From Methylotuvimicrobium alcaliphilum 20Z (GTDB taxonomy: Bacteria > Pseudomonadota > Gammaproteobacteria > Methylococcales > Methylomonadaceae): a stretch of 64,000 nt of DNA. Shown here piece after piece: positions 9,645-28,820 of this stretch. The notes beneath the pieces are model-generated. The model ran no database searches. It was not told the DNA's origin and saw nothing but the letters and a program-made list of their open reading frames with translations. Every line of letters begins with the position of its first letter. Position 1 is the first letter of the stretch. The DNA is taken from assembly GCF_000968535.2 (NCBI RefSeq), contig NC_016112.1, positions 1,612,001-1,676,000 of the forward strand, given 5' to 3'. Made by a program: the position numbers and the translations under genes.

Positions 9645-10053
9645 TATCCTAAATCCGGTAGTTTAACCATGATGCACATGACGTTCATAAAGTCTTTCAA
9701 CGGCTTGCTTTAAAATAGTGAATAACCTCACTGTGAAAGTTCGTAGATTGAGACTCTTTTATCTAATTTTTTGATATGCAAAAGCTCAGCAACGAAATTG
9801 CCGGTTCCGAAGAGGGTGCGGTTGCTCGATCGACAGGCGTCGGCGGCAGGGAAAGCCGCCGTCGAGCCTACAAGGACGTATTCACGGCGTCCTGTCGGGC
9901 GAGTGACCGCACCCTCATCTCCCCGAGAACTTTCATCAACCGGGGTGATTGCCAGGTCTTCATGAGCATTAGAAGAGCAAAAATGATTTGCATAGGCATA
10001 ATAAGCCATTAAATGATCTTCGTATTCTTCATGGTGAAATGTTTTTTCTTGGA
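9645..10053. repeat. Repeat-derived block splitting the xdh operon
   Basis: The block holds three recognisable pieces. Near 9660-9710 is a TTTAACCATGATGCACATGA-type repeat. Around 9790-9970 is a variant of family A (the GACGTATTCACGGCGTCC core, then GGGCGAGTGACCGCACCCTC), which recurs at 20345-20455. At about 9975-10055, read on the minus strand, is a CATTTCACCATGAAGAATA-type repeat that matches 30516-30590. An open frame on the minus strand (9728-10057) consists of these repeats and is not called as a gene. Confidence 0.65.
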
Positions 10054-19038: not shown

Positions 19039-20313
19039 TCAGTCATGCGTTTGATGAATAGGCAACCAAATCTTAAAACTGGCGCCCTCTCCGATTTGGC
19101 TCGAAACATCGATTCTGCCATGATGAGCTCGGACAATATTATTTGCGGTCGATAAGCCCAGGCCGATACCTTTGCCAATAGGGCGCGTCGTGAAAAACGG
19201 TTCAAATAATCGATGCATATGGTTCGGATTAATCCCGGGGCCGTCGTCTGCAATTTCCACCCATATTTGTTTGTCGTCGATACCGGTTCGTATGATGATT
19301 TCGCCGGATTCGCCGACGGCTTGCCAGGCATTAGTCAGCAAACTTAAAAAAACTTGATTCATGAGTTGAGGAATGCATTCGATCTCGGGCGTGTCTCCAT
19401 ATTCTTTGCGAATACGGCATTGGATATTTTGGCTGCAGACGAACACCTTTAAAGTCGTATCCAAGCTCTGCTTGATATCGTATTGTTGCCAGTTTTGGCC
19501 GTTGTCATCGGTGAATTGATTGAAGGCACGTACGATATTTCGTACTCGGGTTAAACCTTCTTTGGATTCGCTAATCAGATCGGCTATATCCTCGCGCAAA
19601 AAATTCCAGTCTTTTTGCTGCTTCAAGGCTTGTAATTTTTCGATACAGTCCGGTTGGGGCCGGCATTTGGAAAGTTGATTATCGTATTGGTCGATCAAGT
19701 CGAATATTTCGAGGGCATATTCTTGAAAGGAATTGAGGTTGGAAAAAATAAACCCCAACGGATTATTGATTTCGTGTGCAATGCCGGCCGCTAATTGACC
19801 GATCGCGGCGAGTTTTTCCGATTGCATCAGTTCGGATTGAATCAATTGATGTTCCTGCATGCGTTTTTGCAGTTCCGTCTCGAGATGGATATTTTGATTT
19901 TGTAAGCGTTCGCGCGCTTTTTTAAGTTCTATTTGTAAGTTGACCCTGACCGATAATATCGATAAGTTGCAGGGTTTATAGAGATAATCCGCCGCACCCA
20001 ACGAAAAACCGAATGTTTCGTCTAGTTCGGAGGTCAACGCCGTCACGAAAATGACAGGAATGTCTTGCGTCTTCGGATTACTCTTCAACGCTTTAATGAC
20101 TTCGTAACCATCCATGCCGGGCATCATAATGTCCAACAGTATGAGGTCTAGTGAGGTATTATTCGCTATTTCCAAGGCTTTAACGCCCGATGTTGCGACC
20201 AATACCGCATAATCCGTCATCAAACATTGTCCGAAAACCGAAAGATTTACGCTTTCGTCATCGACTATCAGAATGCTAGGGCGCTGCTCAAGGCTAGCGG
20301 TATCGTTTGACAT
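19039..20313 (-). CDS. Receiver-histidine kinase
   Basis: 424 residues. An N-terminal receiver domain (about 12-128) has the acidic pocket VDDE and phospho-acceptor Asp61 in LLLDIMMPGMDGY, with the conserved Lys in YKPCNL. A coiled-coil linker (130-165) leads to a HisKA-like dimerisation domain with H180 in GIAHEINNPLGF. The ATPase domain follows with LTNAWQAV, ADDGPGI and GKGIGLGLS. There is no membrane span or obvious sensor domain, so it takes its input through the receiver, probably from another kinase. It is divergent from the corrinoid operon and 150 nt from its start, so it may regulate that operon (inference). Confidence 0.9.
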   Translation of the reverse strand: MSNDTASLEQRPSILIVDDESVNLSVFGQCLMTDYAVLVATSGVKALEIANNTSLDLILLDIMMPGMDGYEVIKALKSNPKTQDIPVIFVTALTSELDETFGFSLGAADYLYKPCNLSILSVRVNLQIELKKARERLQNQNIHLETELQKRMQEHQLIQSELMQSEKLAAIGQLAAGIAHEINNPLGFIFSNLNSFQEYALEIFDLIDQYDNQLSKCRPQPDCIEKLQALKQQKDWNFLREDIADLISESKEGLTRVRNIVRAFNQFTDDNGQNWQQYDIKQSLDTTLKVFVCSQNIQCRIRKEYGDTPEIECIPQLMNQVFLSLLTNAWQAVGESGEIIIRTGIDDKQIWVEIADDGPGINPNHMHRLFEPFFTTRPIGKGIGLGLSTANNIVRAHHGRIDVSSQIGEGASFKIWLPIHQTHD

Positions 20314-20344
20314 TAAGACCTCAAAATTTATTTATCATCATCGT

Positions 20345-20458
20345 AGATCAAAATTCGGCATCGGCGTCCTATCGGGCGAGTGACCGCACCCTCCGCCACC
20401 AGAGAACTTTCATTTGCCGGGACGATCGATTGCCAGACCTTCATGAATATTACTATAG
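20345..20458. repeat. Family A-derived fragment upstream of the corrinoid operon
   Basis: The stretch from GTAGATCAAAATTCGGCATC through GGGCGAGTGACCGCACCCTC to CAGACCTTCATGAATATT matches the variant at about 9890-9970. It fills most of the interval between the two divergent genes, so promoter elements for both may lie in or around it. Confidence 0.6.
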
Positions 20459-20462
20459 TAAT

Positions 20463-22148
20463 ATGAGTTCCACCCTCCAAGATAGTGCCCGAATTGCGGC
20501 TAAAAGACCGATGCCAAAAAATTTAGAATCCATCGAAGAAAAAAAATATTATCGGTTGCGCGTCAGCACGGATGATTGCGGTTTAGAGCTTTACCTGTCC
20601 GATTCGTTATCGGTTCGAGAAGCGCTAGATCACACCGAAATTCGGGTTCGTGCGGCCTGTGGAGGACTAGGTACATGCGGCGCTTGTTTGATACAAGTCA
20701 TTTCCGGCCGGTTCAATCCTCCGACACCGGCAGAGCGGCAAAAATTATTGCCGGATCAATTGGTTCAGGGATATCGACTCGCCTGTCAATTAAGGCCTCT
20801 GAGTGATGGTGAAGCCTACCTTGCCCATCCTGCTCCGCCGTCGCAATGGAGAAGTCCGGATCGATGCGAGTGGCCTACGGTCGAGTTTTCAAAAGATGTC
20901 GACGAGGTTCGGCAGCCGTATGGGATTGCGGTCGATTTAGGAACGACTCATATTCGTTTGTCTATTTGGAATCGTCATACCGCTCGGCTCATCGGTTGCC
21001 GGGTAGGTATCAATCCTCAAGTGGCTCATGGTGCCGATGTCCTGACTCGTTTGGATTCCCGGCGATTGGACGTTTATGCCTCGCGGGACTTGATGATCGA
21101 AGGGCGTAAGGCTATCTTGGACGGCATTCGAGATATTTTAAGTCGAGATTTTGGGGAAGTCGTTCACGTCCTTGACGAAACCGGAAAGATTATTATCGTC
21201 GGAAACACCGTCATGTTGATGTTGATTGGCGGCGGTAACGATAGCGATGATCTGTATCGGCTTGAAAATTGGCATATTCCTGTCGAGTGTCGAATCGATG
21301 ATATTGCCGCTTGGCGCCATGATTGGCGTATGCCCCATGCGGATATCTCGATCGCTCAGCCATTGGCCGGTTTTGTCGGGTCGGATTTATTGGCCGATCT
21401 TTTGGCTTCAGGTATAACCGAGCAACCCGTTCCGATGCTGTTGGCGGATTTGGGAACCAATACTGAAATTGCTCTGTGGGACGGCACTGCGGCATGGGTG
21501 ACATCGGTACCGGGCGGCCCGGCGTTTGAAGGCGTCGGGATGCGCAATGGTATGGCGGCTGAAACGGGTGCCGTTTATCGGGTTCGCGATGACGGCGATC
21601 GTTGGCTGATTGCTACGATTGGCGATCAGCCGATTCGAGGATATTGTGCCAGTGGCTTCATCGATGCGATTGCAGTGATGTTGGACAAACAAATACTCAA
21701 GCCCTCCGGTCGCTTTACCCAATCATTGCAACCGAGCGGTACGGGTTATCGGCTTGATGCCGACAATGCTAGGTCGGCGATTTTTGGTAGTGATGTCGAT
21801 ATTTTTCAACGAGCCAAGGCTTCGACCGCCGCAGCCATGATGCAATTACTCGGGTTCGCCGATTTGAAACCAAGCGATTTACAGGCTGTTTGGATTTGCG
21901 GCAGTTTGGGTCAGCATCTGGATTTACACAATGCGATTCGTGTCGGTTTGTTGCCCCGTTTACCGGTCGACAGATTCAAACGTTTTGCGAATGCGAGTCT
22001 GGCCGGGTGCGAGCAGTTGTTGCTGGACCGAAATGCAAATACTCGTTTAAATACGATCATAAGTAAGACAAAATCGATCAATTTAGGCGGGATAAGTAGC
22101 TATGAAGAAAGTTTTATCGAGCATTTGCGCTTGCAGCCGATGGCATAA
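20463..22148 (+). CDS. RACo-type reductive activator of corrinoid protein (2Fe-2S/ASKHA, DUF4445)
   Basis: About 561 residues from the ATG at 20463. The frame is open further upstream to 20307, but that part is repeat sequence, so the later start is preferred; ATG 20511 is another option. The N-terminal plant-type ferredoxin domain has C66-x5-C72-x2-C75 and C108. From about residue 160 an ASKHA ATPase fold follows: AVDLGTTHIRLSIWN, NPQVAHGADVLTRLD, LLADLGTNTEIAL, PGGPAFEGVGMRNGM, GYCASGFIDA and ICGSLGQHLDLHNAIRVGLLP. Proteins of this family use ATP and an electron to return inactive Co(II) corrinoid to Co(I). First gene of a tight six-gene unit. Confidence 0.88.
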   Translation: MSSTLQDSARIAAKRPMPKNLESIEEKKYYRLRVSTDDCGLELYLSDSLSVREALDHTEIRVRAACGGLGTCGACLIQVISGRFNPPTPAERQKLLPDQLVQGYRLACQLRPLSDGEAYLAHPAPPSQWRSPDRCEWPTVEFSKDVDEVRQPYGIAVDLGTTHIRLSIWNRHTARLIGCRVGINPQVAHGADVLTRLDSRRLDVYASRDLMIEGRKAILDGIRDILSRDFGEVVHVLDETGKIIIVGNTVMLMLIGGGNDSDDLYRLENWHIPVECRIDDIAAWRHDWRMPHADISIAQPLAGFVGSDLLADLLASGITEQPVPMLLADLGTNTEIALWDGTAAWVTSVPGGPAFEGVGMRNGMAAETGAVYRVRDDGDRWLIATIGDQPIRGYCASGFIDAIAVMLDKQILKPSGRFTQSLQPSGTGYRLDADNARSAIFGSDVDIFQRAKASTAAAMMQLLGFADLKPSDLQAVWICGSLGQHLDLHNAIRVGLLPRLPVDRFKRFANASLAGCEQLLLDRNANTRLNTIISKTKSINLGGISSYEESFIEHLRLQPMA

Positions 22149-22160
22149 GGGGGCCGAAAT

Positions 22161-22826
22161 ATGTTGAGTCGTTATGTGCAGGCATACAACGAAGCGGTTT
22201 TCGAAACCGATAAACAGGCGGCCTTGGCCGTGGTCGACGGGGCTCTACAGGACGGTTATAGCCCGGAAGATATTGTGTTCAATTTGGTCATCCCTGCCGT
22301 GGAAGCCATGATGGCGCGCATCGAACAGGACCCCGATTCCAATTTGGCGCAACATTTCATGACGGCACAAATCGCCTCGGAAGTGACCGAGCGAATGCTG
22401 GAAAAATTCGCTAGCCCGCCGGAAGCGATAGGCAAAGTGGTGATCGGCGCCGCCTATGGCGATTTACACTCGCTCGGTAAACGTATCGTGATCGGGTGTC
22501 TTAAATCGCTGATGGTGGATGTCATCGATCTAGGTATTAATATCCGCGCCGAACAATTTGTCGACAGGGCTGTTGAAAACGGCGCGCAAGTCATCGCGAT
22601 CTCGGCCATGATGGTGCATACCGCGACCGGCGAGAACGGCAGTATCAAGGTTCGAGCCTTATTAAAGGAGCGAGGCTTGGAAGACAAAATAAAATTGGCG
22701 GTTGGCGGCGCGCCTTACCGATTCGATCCGGAGTTATACAAAAAAGTGGGGGGCGACGCATGGGCTCCCGACGGCGTGACGGCGGCAAAAGTTATTATCC
22801 AATTGATCAAAGAGGTGAACGCATGA
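22161..22826 (+). CDS. Cobalamin-binding corrinoid protein (MtbC/MtaC-like)
   Basis: 221 residues, the full two-domain corrinoid protein of methyltransferase systems. Residues about 1-88 form the helical B12-binding cap. From about 90 comes the Rossmann domain with the His-on motif D101-x-H103-x-x-G106 (GDLHSLGKRIV), the SAM segment at 148-150 and VGGAP at about 181-185. H103 should be the lower cobalt ligand. It would carry a methyl group between methyltransferases and be reactivated by the upstream RACo-like protein (12 nt away). Its stop overlaps the next gene's start (ATGA). Confidence 0.93.
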   Translation: MLSRYVQAYNEAVFETDKQAALAVVDGALQDGYSPEDIVFNLVIPAVEAMMARIEQDPDSNLAQHFMTAQIASEVTERMLEKFASPPEAIGKVVIGAAYGDLHSLGKRIVIGCLKSLMVDVIDLGINIRAEQFVDRAVENGAQVIAISAMMVHTATGENGSIKVRALLKERGLEDKIKLAVGGAPYRFDPELYKKVGGDAWAPDGVTAAKVIIQLIKEVNA

Positions 22827-23851
22827 CACCTTTAGAAATTTTAGCGGCGGCTATAAACGGCGATCCGGCACCGCGTATTCCGATCTTTTGCAATTTGCTC
22901 GATCAAGGCGCGCGCGAACTCAATATGCACTCGCAAGATTATTTTGCTCGAGGAGAATGCGTGGCCGAAGCGCAATTGCGAATGTTAAAGCGCTTCGGTC
23001 ATGACAATGCGTGGAGTTTGCATTATGTCGGCAAGGAAGCCGAATTGTTGGGCTGCCAAAAAATATTATTTGCCGATGACGGCGTGCCTAATGTAGAAGA
23101 TTTCGTGATCAAGAATTGGGACGATATCGCCAAATTCGAAGTCCCAACCGATATTACTCAACATCAAGCGTGGCAGGCCATTGACGATTGTTTAGCGATT
23201 CTGCGCGCCGAAATTGGGCAGACTCATGCCATTTGTGCTTATGTGACGGCTTCGACGACCTTGCCGGCGTTATTGATGGGCATGGATAAATGGATGGAGT
23301 TGTTTTTAACCGGGCCGGTCGATCTGCGCGACGAATTGTTGCGTAAATGCGTAGATTTTTTTCATCAGCACATTAATGCGCTACGTGCGGCCGGAGCCAA
23401 TGTTCTGATGTATTCGACGCCGTTCGGCTCACCCTATTTCGTCGGTAACAAAATCATCGAAGAAAACGTATTGCCTTGGATGAAACTCGATTTACAACCC
23501 GGCGGCGTTGCCGATGTCGTATATTATTGCGGTATGGCGCCATTTAACGGCGTCATCGATTTGGTGTTTGATCAACTGGGCATCACCTCGCATTACATCA
23601 GTCCATTGGCTGACTTGGCCGAAGCCAAGCGCTTGATCAATACCCGCGGCTTGACTTGTGGTGTGATAGACGACATCAAAATGATTCATTGGACTGAGGC
23701 GGAAACCAAAGCCGAAGTTAAACGCATCGTCGAGATAGGCAAGCAGGGCGGACATTTTTTATTCGGGAATGGCGTTATGCCTCTGGCAGTGCCGGAGGTC
23801 AATATCAAGGCGATGATAACGGCTGCCTTTGAGTACGGGCAGTTGACATGA
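22823..23851 (+). CDS. UroD-family methyltransferase (MtaA/MtbA-like), zinc ligands altered
   Basis: 342 residues from the ATG at 22823, chosen because it makes the classic ATGA overlap with the corrinoid gene. The fold is that of uroporphyrinogen-decarboxylase-like methylcobamide methyltransferases (MTPLEILAAAINGDPAPRIPI start). In MtaA/MtbA a His-x-Cys and a later Cys bind the zinc that activates the thiol acceptor. Here the first site reads YYCG (234-237), with Tyr for His, and the later site reads FGNGVMP (314-320) with no Cys. So it may transfer methyl groups to a non-thiol acceptor such as a pterin, or have another role. The residue alignment is by eye. Confidence 0.82.
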   Translation: MTPLEILAAAINGDPAPRIPIFCNLLDQGARELNMHSQDYFARGECVAEAQLRMLKRFGHDNAWSLHYVGKEAELLGCQKILFADDGVPNVEDFVIKNWDDIAKFEVPTDITQHQAWQAIDDCLAILRAEIGQTHAICAYVTASTTLPALLMGMDKWMELFLTGPVDLRDELLRKCVDFFHQHINALRAAGANVLMYSTPFGSPYFVGNKIIEENVLPWMKLDLQPGGVADVVYYCGMAPFNGVIDLVFDQLGITSHYISPLADLAEAKRLINTRGLTCGVIDDIKMIHWTEAETKAEVKRIVEIGKQGGHFLFGNGVMPLAVPEVNIKAMITAAFEYGQLT

Positions 23852-24471
23852 AAAAATTTGTCCTGCATCAGGAGCATACAGAGCCCTTGACGATGGTCGG
23901 TTGCGGTATTTTGCGCAAAGAAGTCGACTATTTGATCCGGACTCATGGCTGGAATGTGCAAACGCATTTTTTGGATTCGGCCCTGCACAATTACCTGAAT
24001 CGGTTATCGAAAGAACTTAACGAAGCCTTGCAAGAGCATGAGGCGAAAGGCGAAAAAACCTTTGTTTTTTACGGGAGTTGCCATCCGTTGATGGACAATT
24101 ATTTGGACGAGCATCGCACTTGCCGTACCCGTGGCCAAAATTGCATCGTTATGTTATTGGGTTATGAGCGTTTCATGCAGGAGCTTGAAAAGGGTGCGTA
24201 CTTTCTGGTCGAGGACTGGGCCTTGACTTGGCAACCGATGATCACGGCATGTTTCGGTAACAATATTACTGTCGTACGCGAAATTTTTCACAGTAGCCAT
24301 AAATTCATGCTTGCACTCAAAACCCCATGCAGCGTCGATTTTTCCGAAGCCGCTCAAACGGCGGCCGATTTTGTGGATTTACCTTTACAGTGGCTCGATG
24401 TCGATCTTGAACACTTAAAGCAAGTGTTGTTCGAAGCTATTAAGCAGCGATTAGATCAAGCAACGACTTGA
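23848..24471 (+). CDS. DUF1638 protein of the corrinoid cluster
   Basis: 207 residues, cytoplasmic, no signal or membrane span. Matches the DUF1638 family by its start (VGCGILRKEVDYLI), the FVFYGSCHPLMDNYL segment with a conserved Cys-His, HRTCRTRGQNCIVMLLGYERF, and EDWALTW. The several conserved Cys/His residues suggest a metal or cofactor site (inference). DUF1638 genes are often found beside UroD-like methyltransferase and corrinoid protein genes, and this one overlaps the methyltransferase by 4 nt. Its biochemical function is unknown; it is a candidate for the missing substrate-facing partner. Confidence 0.85.
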   Translation: MKKFVLHQEHTEPLTMVGCGILRKEVDYLIRTHGWNVQTHFLDSALHNYLNRLSKELNEALQEHEAKGEKTFVFYGSCHPLMDNYLDEHRTCRTRGQNCIVMLLGYERFMQELEKGAYFLVEDWALTWQPMITACFGNNITVVREIFHSSHKFMLALKTPCSVDFSEAAQTAADFVDLPLQWLDVDLEHLKQVLFEAIKQRLDQATT

Positions 24472-24477
24472 ACGGGC

Positions 24478-26469
24478 ATGATGAATTCAAACGATCACGA
24501 TTTGCAAAGGCGTATAGAGCACTTGGAACACCGTGTCCGTAAGCTATCCGAAGAAAAGGCCAATCTGCATCTTGTCCTGCATATGGTGGAATTGCTCAAT
24601 CCGATTGCCGGTATCGATTACTTCCTAGATAGTATGATCGCGGCTCTTTGCGGTAGTTTAGGCGGTACCAATACGGAGATTTATTATCTGGACGAAGGCG
24701 AGATTCACTATGTCAACTTATTCGGCGAAAAACGGATTGTCGGTGAGATTGAAGATTCGTTGGTGGCGGAGGTCTTTGCCACTCGCCATTTTGTCGAACA
24801 AAATACCGATTTGAACCATACCTTGCTCAAGGATAATGTAGCGGCGGTGGCTTGTACTTGGGTGATGCCCTTAACTATCGGCGACCAAATTTTGGGTGTT
24901 GTCAAAATGTCCGATTTGCTTGGGTCGGCACAGATGCGCAATTATTTGGCCCCGTTTTTTTCGCACATCGCGCTGATTCTGAATAACAAAATCCAGACTC
25001 GTAAAGCGGAAGCCGCTAATCGTGCCAAAAGCAGCTTTTTAGCGACGATGTCCCACGAAATCCGAACGCCACTGAACGGGATTCTGGGCATGGCTCAATT
25101 ATTAGCTAAGCAGGAATGCAACGATGCTAAACGCCTAGAATGTGCTCGTACGATTCTGACGTCCGGAAATAATTTGCTTGCTTTGCTCAACGATATTTTA
25201 GATTTGTCTAAGATCGAGGCGAATCGTTTGGAGTTGAATTTTTTAGCCGTTCAGCCGCAAAAGGTTTTGGATGAAATCATGACGCTTTTTTCCGGTGCTG
25301 CCCAGCAAAAAGGGCTAAGGATTTATGCAACATGGATGGGGGGCGAGGCACAGGCCTATCGACTTGACCCGCTCAGAGTTAAGCAAATGTTGTCTAATCT
25401 GGTCAGTAATGCCATTAAATTTACCGATCGCGGTTCCATCCGGATCGAGGCGCGTCCGGTCCATGACGAGTCGGGGAGTTGTCAATTGGAGTTTTCGATC
25501 AGCGATACCGGTATCGGTATTCCGAAGGACAAACAGCGAGACTTATTTAAACCGTTTACCCAGATCGATAGCAGTTCGAATCGCCGTTATGTCGGTACCG
25601 GCTTGGGTTTGTCGCTGGTGTCGCGTTTTGCCGGGATGATGCAAGGGCAAGCCGGGGTTGTGAGCGATGAAGGAGAGGGAGCGCGATTTTGGTTTCGGAT
25701 ACCTACCCGAGTCGATAATGAGTTCGAGCCCCCTGGTCTCGCAACCAATATTGACAACTCATCCCAATTATCGAATCCAAATCCCAGACTAAGCCGCGTG
25801 TTATTGATCGGCAGTCATTGTGAGCATGGCGCTAATTTGTCGGCACAACTAAAGGCACGATCTATCGAAGTGATTGGTATTGATCATGACGATCAAATTT
25901 CGGACGTTATCGTCAAGGATCTTGGGTTGGATGCAATCATTATTGAACCTAGTTTGGAAAATAAATCTCTTTGCCGGCTTGCGAGAGAGGTTCGCGACTT
26001 GGAATCGGCCAATCATCTTCCCCGCGCATTCATCATCGGCATTAGCGATCAACAGTACGGCGAAGAGTTAGACTCGGTATTTCAACAGAATATCGATGAA
26101 CGACTCGTTCGGCCCTTTACGATAGAGCATTTAGTGAACGTAATCGAAAGCCATATTCATCTGTCTGCGATTCAGCAGCAAAAGGCGTTGACTTGTAACG
26201 ATGAAGAACGCATGTTTTTCAAAAATTGCGAAGGTATCAACGACATTCTCGACGGTCTTGAGCGCCAGTTGGAAAAAAATATGTTTACTGCCGTTGAGCA
26301 ATTTAGCATGCTGCAAGCAAAACTAGAGGGTGGTTTGATCGCTACGCATTTCGCCAAGCTTGGTAAGTTGATTAACGATATGAATTTTGAGGAAGCTCAT
26401 CTAGAGCTAAAGTTATTGCGTGAGCGATTCTCCGAAACCGAGACGAAGGAAACGCATTGTGGGCATTGA
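24478..26469 (+). CDS. Hybrid histidine kinase with GAF-like sensor and pseudo-receiver
   Basis: 663 residues, no membrane span. A short coiled coil (about 8-32) precedes a GAF-like domain (35-172). The kinase core has H193 in MSHEIRTPLNG, LVSNAIKFT, SDTGIGIPK and GTGLGLSLV. Residues 438-560 have a receiver fold, but Glu490 replaces the phospho-acceptor Asp (AIIIEPS) and Arg545 the conserved Lys, so it cannot be phosphorylated normally. The C-terminal 90 residues are helical and lack a clear HPt histidine. It starts 6 nt after the DUF1638 gene, which places it in the corrinoid unit. Confidence 0.88.
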   Translation: MMNSNDHDLQRRIEHLEHRVRKLSEEKANLHLVLHMVELLNPIAGIDYFLDSMIAALCGSLGGTNTEIYYLDEGEIHYVNLFGEKRIVGEIEDSLVAEVFATRHFVEQNTDLNHTLLKDNVAAVACTWVMPLTIGDQILGVVKMSDLLGSAQMRNYLAPFFSHIALILNNKIQTRKAEAANRAKSSFLATMSHEIRTPLNGILGMAQLLAKQECNDAKRLECARTILTSGNNLLALLNDILDLSKIEANRLELNFLAVQPQKVLDEIMTLFSGAAQQKGLRIYATWMGGEAQAYRLDPLRVKQMLSNLVSNAIKFTDRGSIRIEARPVHDESGSCQLEFSISDTGIGIPKDKQRDLFKPFTQIDSSSNRRYVGTGLGLSLVSRFAGMMQGQAGVVSDEGEGARFWFRIPTRVDNEFEPPGLATNIDNSSQLSNPNPRLSRVLLIGSHCEHGANLSAQLKARSIEVIGIDHDDQISDVIVKDLGLDAIIIEPSLENKSLCRLAREVRDLESANHLPRAFIIGISDQQYGEELDSVFQQNIDERLVRPFTIEHLVNVIESHIHLSAIQQQKALTCNDEERMFFKNCEGINDILDGLERQLEKNMFTAVEQFSMLQAKLEGGLIATHFAKLGKLINDMNFEEAHLELKLLRERFSETETKETHCGH

Positions 26470-28585
26470 GCGCCAGAAAATCCTGATAATCGACGATACG
26501 CCGGCCAATATTACGTTGTTGGGGATGGCATTAAAGGATCACTACGAGATCCAGATCGCGACTAGCGGTAAAAAAGGCTTGGAGCTGGCTAGCGAGACTC
26601 CGCCCGATTTGGTTTTGCTCGATATCATGATGCCCGATCTCGACGGCTATGAAACCTGCCGGTTATTCAAGGCCGATGAAAGGTTGCGGCATATACCGAT
26701 TATTTTCGTGACTGCGTTGAGCGAAATCGAAGCCGAAATTCATGGTTTATCGCTGGGTGCTGCAGACTTTTTGATAAAGCCTTTTAATCTCCAGATTGCT
26801 CAGCTTAGGGTGCGTAATTTATTGGAAACCGAACGAATGCGGCAGGCGTTGCGTCAGACGGAAGAAGATCAACGTCTTGCCGCGACCGTCTTTGCCTATA
26901 GTCATGACGGCATCGTGATTACCGATGTTGAAAACCGTATTATCAATGTCAATAACGCCTTTAGCCGTATTACCGGTTATGGACTTGACGAAATCAAAGG
27001 CGAAAATCCACGGATACTCAAATCAGGGCGGCAGGATACCGAATTCTACCAAAACATGTGGCAAGCCTTGTTATCGGAAGGTCACTGGAGCGGCGAAATT
27101 TGGAATCGCAACAAGCAGGGTGAGATTTACGCGGCTTTGACGTCTATTGCTGTGGTCAGGGACGATCAAGACAGCATTCATCATTTCATCGGTTCATTTA
27201 TCGACATTACTCCGATCAAAGAACATCAGCACGCGTTGGAACGTATCGCGCATTTCGATCCCCTGACAGGAGTTCCGAACCGCTTTTTATTATCGGATAG
27301 ACTTGAACAAGCCATCGTTCATACGCGACGTTCGCGAAAATTAATGGCGGTGTGTTATCTGGATCTGGATGAATTTAAACCGATCAATGATCGATTCGGT
27401 CATCAAGTCGGCGATCAATTATTAATAGAAATTACCCGTCGCATCAAGGCTTGTTTACGCGAAGGCGATACGTTGGCACGCATAGGCGGCGATGAGTTTG
27501 TATTATTATTGTTAGATATCAATGACAGAGGCGAATGTAAGACGATATTACGAAGAATTCTCAAAGCTGTTTCGGCAAAAATGTTGTTGGCGAATCAATA
27601 TGTGTCGGTATCATTGAGCTTGGGTTTTACTCTGTATCCGGATGATTTTTCCGATACTGAAACACTGATTCGACATGCCGATCAAGCGATGTATCAAGCC
27701 AAGCAACAAGGTAAGAATCGATTTCAACGTTTCGACATGCTTCAAGAAAAACATGCATACGAGCAAGGGAAGCAACTTGCCCGTATCGAATGCGCATTGG
27801 CCAATAATGAATTTGTGTTGTATTTTCAGCCTAAGATCAATCTTCGCGATGGCGCTATTCTGGGAGTCGAGGCCTTGATTCGCTGGCAACATCCCGCGCG
27901 TGGTTTACTGAGCCCCTCCATGTTTTTGCCGATGATTCAAGGCAGTCAGCTTGAGATTAATATCGGCGATTGGGTGTTATCGACTGCCTTGAGTCGGTGG
28001 AATCAATGGAAAAAAGCAGGGGTCGATATTGCCATTAGTATTAATATTGCCGCTGGAGCATTGCTGCACCCTGACTTTGTTGAGAATTTATCCGCTAAAT
28101 GTGCCGAATATCCGGATTTGCAGTCAGGCTGTCTTGAGTTGGAAATACTGGAGACCGGAGCATTGGATGATGACGAACGCGCGATTAAGGTAATGAAGGC
28201 TTGCCAAGCTTTGGGTGTCGTATTTGCGCTCGACGATTTCGGAACAGGCTATTCGTCGTTGAGTTATCTGAAATCCTTACCGGCAAAAACGTTAAAAATC
28301 GACCGGTCGTTTGTATTGGGTATGCTGGAAAATGAAGGAGATTTAGCGATCGTTAAAGGGATTATTGATCTAGCCTCGATATTCAAAATGCAAGTCATCT
28401 CGGAAGGCGTCGAAACAGTCGCGCACTTATTGAAATTACTTGAGCTAGGTTGTGAAAATGGTCAAGGGTATGCAATCGCAAAACCGATGCCAGAGGAGGA
28501 TTTGCTCAATTGGTTAAAAGAATGGCAGTTGGAGCAAAAGAATTATCTTAAAAAAGCATTTCACCATGAAGAGCATGAAGATTAA
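26459..28585 (+). CDS. REC-PAS-GGDEF-EAL response regulator (c-di-GMP turnover)
   Basis: About 708 residues from GTG 26459 (AAGGAA 8 nt upstream); a GTG at 26420 is an alternative. Order: receiver domain with phospho-acceptor Asp55 in VLLDIMMPDLDGY; PAS domain (about 135-255); diguanylate cyclase with intact GGDEF and the inhibitory site REGD five residues before it; EAL phosphodiesterase domain with EALIRW, DDFGTGYSSLSYLK, KIDRSFV and EGVE. Both catalytic domains look intact. It overlaps the kinase by 11 nt, so the kinase is its likely partner. The last residues (KAFHHEEHED) come from a dispersed repeat that also provides the stop codon. Confidence 0.92.
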   Translation: MGIERQKILIIDDTPANITLLGMALKDHYEIQIATSGKKGLELASETPPDLVLLDIMMPDLDGYETCRLFKADERLRHIPIIFVTALSEIEAEIHGLSLGAADFLIKPFNLQIAQLRVRNLLETERMRQALRQTEEDQRLAATVFAYSHDGIVITDVENRIINVNNAFSRITGYGLDEIKGENPRILKSGRQDTEFYQNMWQALLSEGHWSGEIWNRNKQGEIYAALTSIAVVRDDQDSIHHFIGSFIDITPIKEHQHALERIAHFDPLTGVPNRFLLSDRLEQAIVHTRRSRKLMAVCYLDLDEFKPINDRFGHQVGDQLLIEITRRIKACLREGDTLARIGGDEFVLLLLDINDRGECKTILRRILKAVSAKMLLANQYVSVSLSLGFTLYPDDFSDTETLIRHADQAMYQAKQQGKNRFQRFDMLQEKHAYEQGKQLARIECALANNEFVLYFQPKINLRDGAILGVEALIRWQHPARGLLSPSMFLPMIQGSQLEINIGDWVLSTALSRWNQWKKAGVDIAISINIAAGALLHPDFVENLSAKCAEYPDLQSGCLELEILETGALDDDERAIKVMKACQALGVVFALDDFGTGYSSLSYLKSLPAKTLKIDRSFVLGMLENEGDLAIVKGIIDLASIFKMQVISEGVETVAHLLKLLELGCENGQGYAIAKPMPEEDLLNWLKEWQLEQKNYLKKAFHHEEHED

Positions 28586-28590
28586 GAAGT

Positions 28591-28820
28591 TATACCTATC
28601 GCACTTCAAATTTCGGCATTAGCGTATGGAGGCGTCGGGGTGTTCGGCAAAGGCTTTGGCAGCATGGATGCTGTCATAGAGCCTACATGGACGTATTCAC
28701 CCAGCACCTAAATTCCATAGCCCATTGGCTATGGTTAACTATCTTGGATAATTTAGGTGCTGGGTTCACGGCGTCCTTTGACGAGCCCCCGGCGCCGAAG
28801 TTTGACCAGCAAAGGGTATA
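28591..28820. repeat. Family A MITE-like element with nested module B
   Basis: Begins TATACCTATCGCACTTCAAA, six bases after the GGDEF/EAL stop, and ends AGCAAAGGGTATA. The nested module occupies 28700-28764, flanked by TTCA (28696-28699 and 28765-28768). Confidence 0.8.
28700..28764. repeat. Nested 65-bp inverted-repeat module (family B)
   Basis: Perfect 15-bp inverted ends CCCAGCACCTAAATT and AATTTAGGTGCTGGG, with an inner CCATAGCC..GGCTATGG palindrome. Flanked by a 4-bp direct repeat TTCA. Same position and orientation within family A as at 4829, 33576 and 54252. Confidence 0.8.

Follow-up and report, generated by a model that had tools for sequence, protein, structure and literature searches.

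Why does the genome of Methylotuvimicrobium alcaliphilum 20Z carry genes for corrinoid methyl-transfer proteins directly beside genes for histidine kinase and cyclic di-GMP (c-di-GMP) signalling? The question is raised by a locus at positions 19,039 to 28,585 of the stretch analysed here (64,000 nucleotides of contig NC_016112.1, positions 1,612,001 to 1,676,000; hereafter the window). An earlier note on this DNA had proposed a methyl-transfer unit coupled to a c-di-GMP signal. Our analysis, in which all evidence is comparative, favours a different reading: with a probability that we put at about 0.62, four of the proteins encoded there (RACo, corrinoid, UroD-like and DUF1638) serve as the input stage of a signalling system in the cytoplasm and not as a catabolic methyltransferase. 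The features of the locus are as follows.

19039..20313, minus strand: REC-HisKA-HATPase protein, receiver first and no output domain (Pfam domains)
20314..20462, no strand: divergent intergenic region; its one sigma-70-like match (20430-20459) does not score above chance
20463 or ATG 20511..22148, plus strand: RACo-type reductive activase with Fer2, RACo middle and RACo C-terminal domains (open reading frame (ORF), Pfam)
22161..22826, plus strand: corrinoid (B12-binding) protein with DxHxxG (Pfam, alignment)
22823..23851, plus strand: UroD-like protein with URO-D domain (Pfam); Tyr234, Cys236 and Asn316, counting the Met at 22823 as 1
23848..24471, plus strand: DUF1638 protein with Cys19, His47, Cys78 and Cys99 (Pfam, alignments)
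24478..26469, plus strand: histidine kinase with GAF-type domain, HisKA, HATPase and degenerate receiver (Pfam, alignment)
24478..24993, plus strand: GAF-type input domain of this kinase (profile searches, structure model)
GTG 26459 or GTG 26420..28585, plus strand: REC-PAS-GGDEF-EAL protein (ORF, Pfam)

The six-gene order, the divergent REC-kinase and the domains that the earlier note had assigned to them are borne out by the ORFs and Pfam matches. Read directly from the sequence, a gap of 12 nucleotides (nt) separates the RACo and corrinoid genes, -4 nt ATGA overlaps join the corrinoid to the UroD-like gene (at 22823) and the UroD-like to the DUF1638 gene (at 23848), and the kinase gene follows DUF1638 after 6 nt. 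These four junctions match those given previously; the last, put at -11 nt, holds only if the REC-PAS-GGDEF-EAL gene starts at GTG 26459, and becomes -50 nt with a start at GTG 26420. The RACo start is also ambiguous, as listed above. The description of the fifth gene product as a hybrid kinase stands for the kinase, with HisKA (73 bits) and HATPase_c (94.4 bits) both over the Pfam cut-offs. It does not stand for the receiver, which has no Pfam match to Response_reg and has lost the acidic pocket residues that relatives such as L055 retain. A PocR domain was matched neither in the whole kinase (E 0.01) nor in its N-terminal part (E 1). The separate REC-PAS-GGDEF-EAL protein retains the receiver Asp, GGDEF and EAL motifs, as read from its translation. 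The divergent REC-kinase gene holds the same position in most of the methanotroph loci listed, and the UroD-like protein is 98% identical to the copy in Methylotuvimicrobium buryatense 5G.

A collection of named genomes was scanned with an alignment of the UroD-like protein, yielding 132 relatives, the best 80 of which were analysed and are called type I loci; many come from metagenome-assembled genomes (MAGs) and some were fetched twice under different identifiers, so these counts are inflated. By record title, the 80 loci belong to methanotrophs, Rhodocyclaceae, Magnetococcales, Mariprofundus, Geobacter and Desulfuromonas relatives, Nitrospirae, Verrucomicrobia, Acidobacteria, Chloroflexi, Bacteroidales and others. 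Upstream of the UroD-like gene lies a corrinoid gene in 79/80 loci and a RACo gene in 53/80. Downstream are DUF1638 in 71/80 and the GAF-type domain within 8 kb in 76/80 (within 2.8 kb in 74/80); within 8 kb it was not found in L114 and L163, where the contigs end, nor in L141 and L152. The order corrinoid-UroD-DUF1638-GAF is kept in 65/80 loci, and kinase, receiver or GGDEF genes are present in 69/80. The proposed association of the kinase with the corrinoid set is therefore upheld by a genome search for gene order, the adjacency being conserved across 80 loci of many phyla. Distances between the module proteins correlate as well, with Mantel r from 0.72 to 0.91 and 0.80 for the UroD-GAF pair (n 78), values uncorrected for shared descent. 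Loci L131 and L134 come from MAGs titled Alphaproteobacteria and Bacteroidales but share almost the same gene order, which reflects either transfer or a binning error.

The GAF-type domain lies at the N-terminus of the kinase. A Pfam search with the window domain gave GAF_2 as the best match, at 14.9 bits and thus below the 28.6-bit cut-off. Its predicted model has a GAF fold (predicted local distance difference test (pLDDT) 90.9), and the top matches of this model in the PDB are GAF proteins (E 4e-6, template-modelling (TM) score 0.5-0.6, root-mean-square deviation 5-8). A profile was built from 58 such domains, all neighbours of UroD-like genes, and type I UroD-like proteins were counted at E below 1e-100. 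In these profile searches, the genomes positive for the domain and those positive for the type I UroD-like gene were identical: 15 of 101 relatives and four of 369 genomes of the window's class. In neither set was the GAF-type domain found in a genome without the UroD-like gene, so that a kinase conserved apart from the corrinoid genes, which the earlier note would have held against its own proposal, was not encountered. In one relative (G053) the UroD-like gene is represented by a 66-residue fragment only, and a genome of the same genus (G003, 100% completeness) shows neither the domain nor the UroD-like gene. Genome G216 has the corrinoid set (L073) and a GAF-type kinase (L183) on separate contigs, and G312 has a second GAF-type copy away from the cluster (L184). 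As judged from these comparisons, the constant companion of the corrinoid set is the GAF-type protein, whose domain appears to be a dedicated one.

What this domain is attached to varies. It heads a kinase in most loci, a PAS-GGDEF-EAL protein in L106, L110 and L123, and a GGDEF protein in L129; in L165, DUF1638, GAF and histidine kinase are joined in one protein. A GGDEF/EAL protein is fused in 4/80 loci and adjacent in 19/80 (23/80 together), and the window's REC-PAS-GGDEF(-EAL) arrangement recurs in loci titled as methanotrophs or unassigned proteobacteria. The earlier proposal of c-di-GMP as the output is thus unsupported in that form: c-di-GMP is only one of several outputs, and the constant element is the GAF-type protein instead. 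Histidine kinase, receiver and GGDEF were all undetected at the cut-off in 11/80 loci (L089, L104, L114, L121, L133, L135, L142, L144, L146, L149 and L159), several of which break off shortly beyond the GAF-type domain and some of which bear PAS domains only. Near the kinases, phosphonate-type periplasmic binding proteins are encoded at L111:2800-3735, L155:14227-15165 and, as judged by eye, L141:9803-10651. The GGDEF-EAL gene of the relative G002 (L049:5688-7776) appears as two overlapping ORFs.

A second, distant family was also found. Profile matches at E values between about 1e-39 and 1e-48 identified eight loci (L083-L085 and L177-L181) with a second-type, or type II, UroD-like protein, and a corrinoid gene was called in all of these but L085 (7/8). 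DUF1638 occupies the N-terminus of a histidine kinase in 6/8 (L084, L085, L177-L180), precedes a PAS domain with no kinase in L083, and stands alone near a contig end in L181. These assignments draw on a type II DUF1638 profile built from L083-L085; the Pfam DUF1638 model exceeds its cut-off in L083-L085, L177, L178, L179 and L181, and not in L180. GGDEF proteins are encoded nearby in L177, L179, L180 and L085. Elsewhere, a type I set lies beside a second, more distant corrinoid-UroD pair (L122:7056-13908). From the fusions in both families, together with the losses, we infer the sensing direction.

The best-surviving alternative is that the locus encodes a true corrinoid methyltransferase that acts on some methylated compound and shares its operon with dedicated regulators, similar to the dichloromethane mec cassette. 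We consider this unlikely. The UroD-like protein is a member of the URO-D superfamily (PF01208, 118.3 bits against a cut-off of 23.9) and aligns to MtaA (4ay7) over its full length, but it scores 72.6 bits against the NCBIfam MtaA/CmuA model TIGR01463, below the cut-off of 235.4. In MtaA, an HxC motif and a later Cys, located here by alignment to 4ay7, are what we take to be the zinc ligands. The window protein has YYC in place of HxC and Asn in place of the later Cys. The His position is Tyr in 95/95 UroD-like rows and the later Cys position is Thr in 77, Asn in 17 and Ser in 1, such that two of the three ligands are gone in every row, although the rows are not independent because some loci were fetched twice (e.g., L048/L087 and L050/L088). 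In type II proteins the His is kept, the first Cys is replaced by Ala, and there is no Cys in the later segment. As a single control, the UroD-like protein of L182, from a metabolic cluster with MTHFR and pterin-binding genes, keeps both H-x-C and the later Cys.

Pathway partners were compared as well. DUF1638 is present in 15/101 relatives and 29/369 class genomes, in neighbourhoods of two kinds: kinase-linked, as in the window, and metabolic. A control set of 21 metabolic loci (L060-L082 except L073 and L078, several of them short contigs) was compared with the 80 kinase-linked loci, using single-query phmmer searches, which could miss distant members, and naming partners by Pfam. A folate methyltransferase was found in 20/21 metabolic loci and MTTB in 10/21, and at the cut-off used all 21 were negative for kinase, receiver and GGDEF genes. 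Within the window's class, these metabolic clusters combine a corrinoid protein, a pterin-binding methyltransferase (20/21), MTTB (10/21), MTHFR and a small PF13769 'Virulence factor' protein. The same phmmer searches, from which distant relatives could escape, found folate methyltransferase, MTHFR and MTTB in 0/80 kinase-linked loci. Because two zinc ligands are gone and these three enzymes were not found nearby, the working methyl-transfer unit assumed by the earlier note is doubtful. The fusions of the GAF-type domain to c-di-GMP enzymes and of DUF1638 to kinases also argue against a catabolic role.

Several observations do favour methyl transfer. The corrinoid protein (PF02310, 71 bits against a cut-off of 32.1) keeps DxHxxG in 87/87 rows and therefore likely binds a cobamide, as predicted from this motif; against TIGR02370 it scores 93.2 bits, below the 215.3 cut-off. 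The presence of RACo in 53/80 loci also fits a methyltransferase. Its Fer2, RACo middle and RACo C-terminal domains exceed the Pfam cut-offs in the window, where it was aligned to 3zyy and falls below the NCBIfam cut-offs for AcsV (215.9 bits, cut-off 800) and TIGR04270 (80 bits, cut-off 500). The UroD-like protein is strongly conserved, and its invariant residues could make another active site. The mec cassette, in passages of its published description, also joins a corrinoid set to a two-component system (PMC9768040).

DUF1638 (PF07796, 110.8 bits against a cut-off of 27) has Cys19, His47, Cys78 and Cys99 in 76/76 kinase-linked rows, and all four positions stay unchanged in a 54-sequence alignment that includes five metabolic copies. 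This invariance suggests a putative metal or redox site.

A second alternative, which we regard as quite improbable, is a corrinoid sensor without methyl transfer, in which redox, oxygen, nitric oxide, cyanide or light acts on the bound cobamide. It would accommodate the loss of the zinc site and the five type II class genomes in which no RACo was found, and passages on B12-based light sensors with cyclase output provide a precedent (PMC10979010). However, RACo, a Co(I)-making activase, is encoded in 53/80 type I loci, and the window corrinoid protein scores 15.3 bits against the NCBIfam CarH model, far below its cut-off of 400. CarH is characterised by GxxW and EH motifs (PMC11796333). Judged by spacing and not by a CarH alignment, the putative Trp position holds Ile, Val or Leu and the putative E of EH is Gln in 87/87 rows.

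Very improbable is the reverse flow, whereby the kinase and the c-di-GMP protein would control the activity or localisation of the corrinoid enzymes; tight gene coupling is compatible with either direction, but the GAF-type domain and DUF1638 lie on the N-terminal input side of kinases, and the corrinoid set is constant while the outputs vary. Chance or hitch-hiking adjacency of unrelated genes is hardly credible, as conservation, co-occurrence and the 0/21 metabolic control loci contradict it even though a methanotroph genome may encode large numbers of kinases and of GGDEF proteins (43 and 39, respectively, for Methylospira, according to passages of PMC6956133).

Some results weigh against an input stage of the kind proposed here. 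No fused or adjacent GGDEF/EAL protein is present in 57/80 loci. The corrinoid set of L141 and L152 lacks an accompanying GAF-type domain, and that of L073 is followed by a kinase/pyrophosphorylase gene. DUF1638 is absent from 9/80 loci and, as called, from L185 and L186, the type I loci in genomes G030 and G096. RACo is missing from 27/80 loci; for 12 of these the genome, of unstated completeness, was searched, and RACo was located elsewhere in eight and not found in four. Nor was a RACo gene found in five class genomes with type II UroD-like proteins, and reductive activation is therefore unneeded there or done otherwise. Because of these two sets of absences, Co(I) chemistry cannot be general. 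The co-occurrence of the GAF-type and UroD-like genes is also subject to the search design: at most nine candidates per class genome were scored in the GAF-type scan, and distant GAF relatives could be missed because loci were found via UroD and the profile was built from UroD neighbours.

If the corrinoid proteins are an input stage, as we favour, the cobamide on the corrinoid protein would be the sensing element, in its methyl-Co(III), Co(II) or Co(I) state. This state might be set by redox or by a small molecule that the UroD-like barrel handles, and RACo, where present, would presumably reset it to Co(I). The state would then be relayed via DUF1638 to the kinase through its GAF-type domain. 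The kinase, its own receiver being degenerate here, would phosphorylate the receiver of the neighbouring REC-PAS-GGDEF-EAL protein, and the resulting shift in c-di-GMP could change attachment or motility. For this scheme we infer co-transcription, physical contact, the direction of information, the identity of the signal, phosphotransfer and the physiological response. A bolder proposal, to which we give somewhat less than even odds, is that methyl-transfer machinery has been turned, in many phyla, into a multi-protein sensor of a methylated compound or of the resulting cobalt state, an input class undescribed in the literature searched. Such a sensor would act through the dedicated GAF-type domain on histidine kinases or c-di-GMP enzymes. 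No description of this composition was found in open-access literature; subscription papers were mostly not covered, and novelty is hence unproven. If correct, these proposals would explain corrinoid methyl-transfer parts that lack pathway partners in aerobic and microaerobic bacteria, and would place DUF1638 beside signal transduction. In methanotrophs, one-carbon or redox chemistry would be tied to c-di-GMP decisions; in Geobacter relatives, Nitrospirae and others, the tie would be to kinase cascades.

Other sequence elements were noticed as well. A near-identical 22-base sequence occurs at 10017-10038 and 28560-28581, that is, in an ORF 18 kb away and at the end of the EAL gene; both copies encode an HHEE-ED peptide, and none was seen in 100 shuffles. 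Just downstream of the EAL gene, an inverted repeat at 28700-28764 with two 15-base arms (28700-28714 and 28750-28764) looks like a small mobile or repetitive extragenic palindromic (REP)-like element. In a Magnetococcales MAG, the Cas genes Csd1 and Cas7 adjoin the module (L127:12218-15510).

Several known systems resemble parts of the module. In passages on Phaeobacter, DUF1638 occurs with a DUF4445 (RamA-like) activase and a B12-binding protein, as in the window, but this B12 reactivation set serves methionine synthase, no kinase is mentioned in those passages, and the authors assign no specific function to DUF1638 (PMC5764234). RamA-like proteins and DUF1638 also figure in B12 reactivation in excerpts from a second source (PMC12478193). 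As portrayed in the available passages, the mec cassette likewise clusters a two-component system with genes for a corrinoid protein and an MtaA/CmuA-like protein, but it differs in its PocR-domain kinase, which may control transcription, and in its several methyltransferase components, transporter and anaerobic catabolism (PMC9768040). CarH and photocobilin-diguanylate cyclase, in the portions consulted, also sense through a B12-binding domain, which in one of the two is fused to a cyclase (PMC10979010), but both are single-protein light sensors on adenosylcobalamin (PMC10979010, PMC11796333). None of the passages on B12 reactivation, photocobilin or the mec cassette describes the composition of this module (PMC5764234, PMC12478193, PMC10979010, PMC9768040).

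MtaA, MtbA and CmuA with RACo or RamA belong to the same superfamilies as the window proteins (URO-D fold, methyltransferase-type corrinoid protein and ferredoxin-ASKHA activase). In contrast to these, the window proteins fall below the NCBIfam cut-offs and have two of the three zinc ligands replaced, and their cluster includes a kinase and no folate methyltransferase that our searches could find. We know of no UroD-like protein, DUF1638 or activase in CarH or photocobilin systems, and of no counterpart to the module's input half in ordinary pairs of kinase and response regulator. Compared with an ordinary histidine kinase and its REC-PAS-GGDEF-EAL response regulator, the output half of the module is standard two-component and c-di-GMP signalling, and the input class itself would be new if reading of the corrinoid state were shown.

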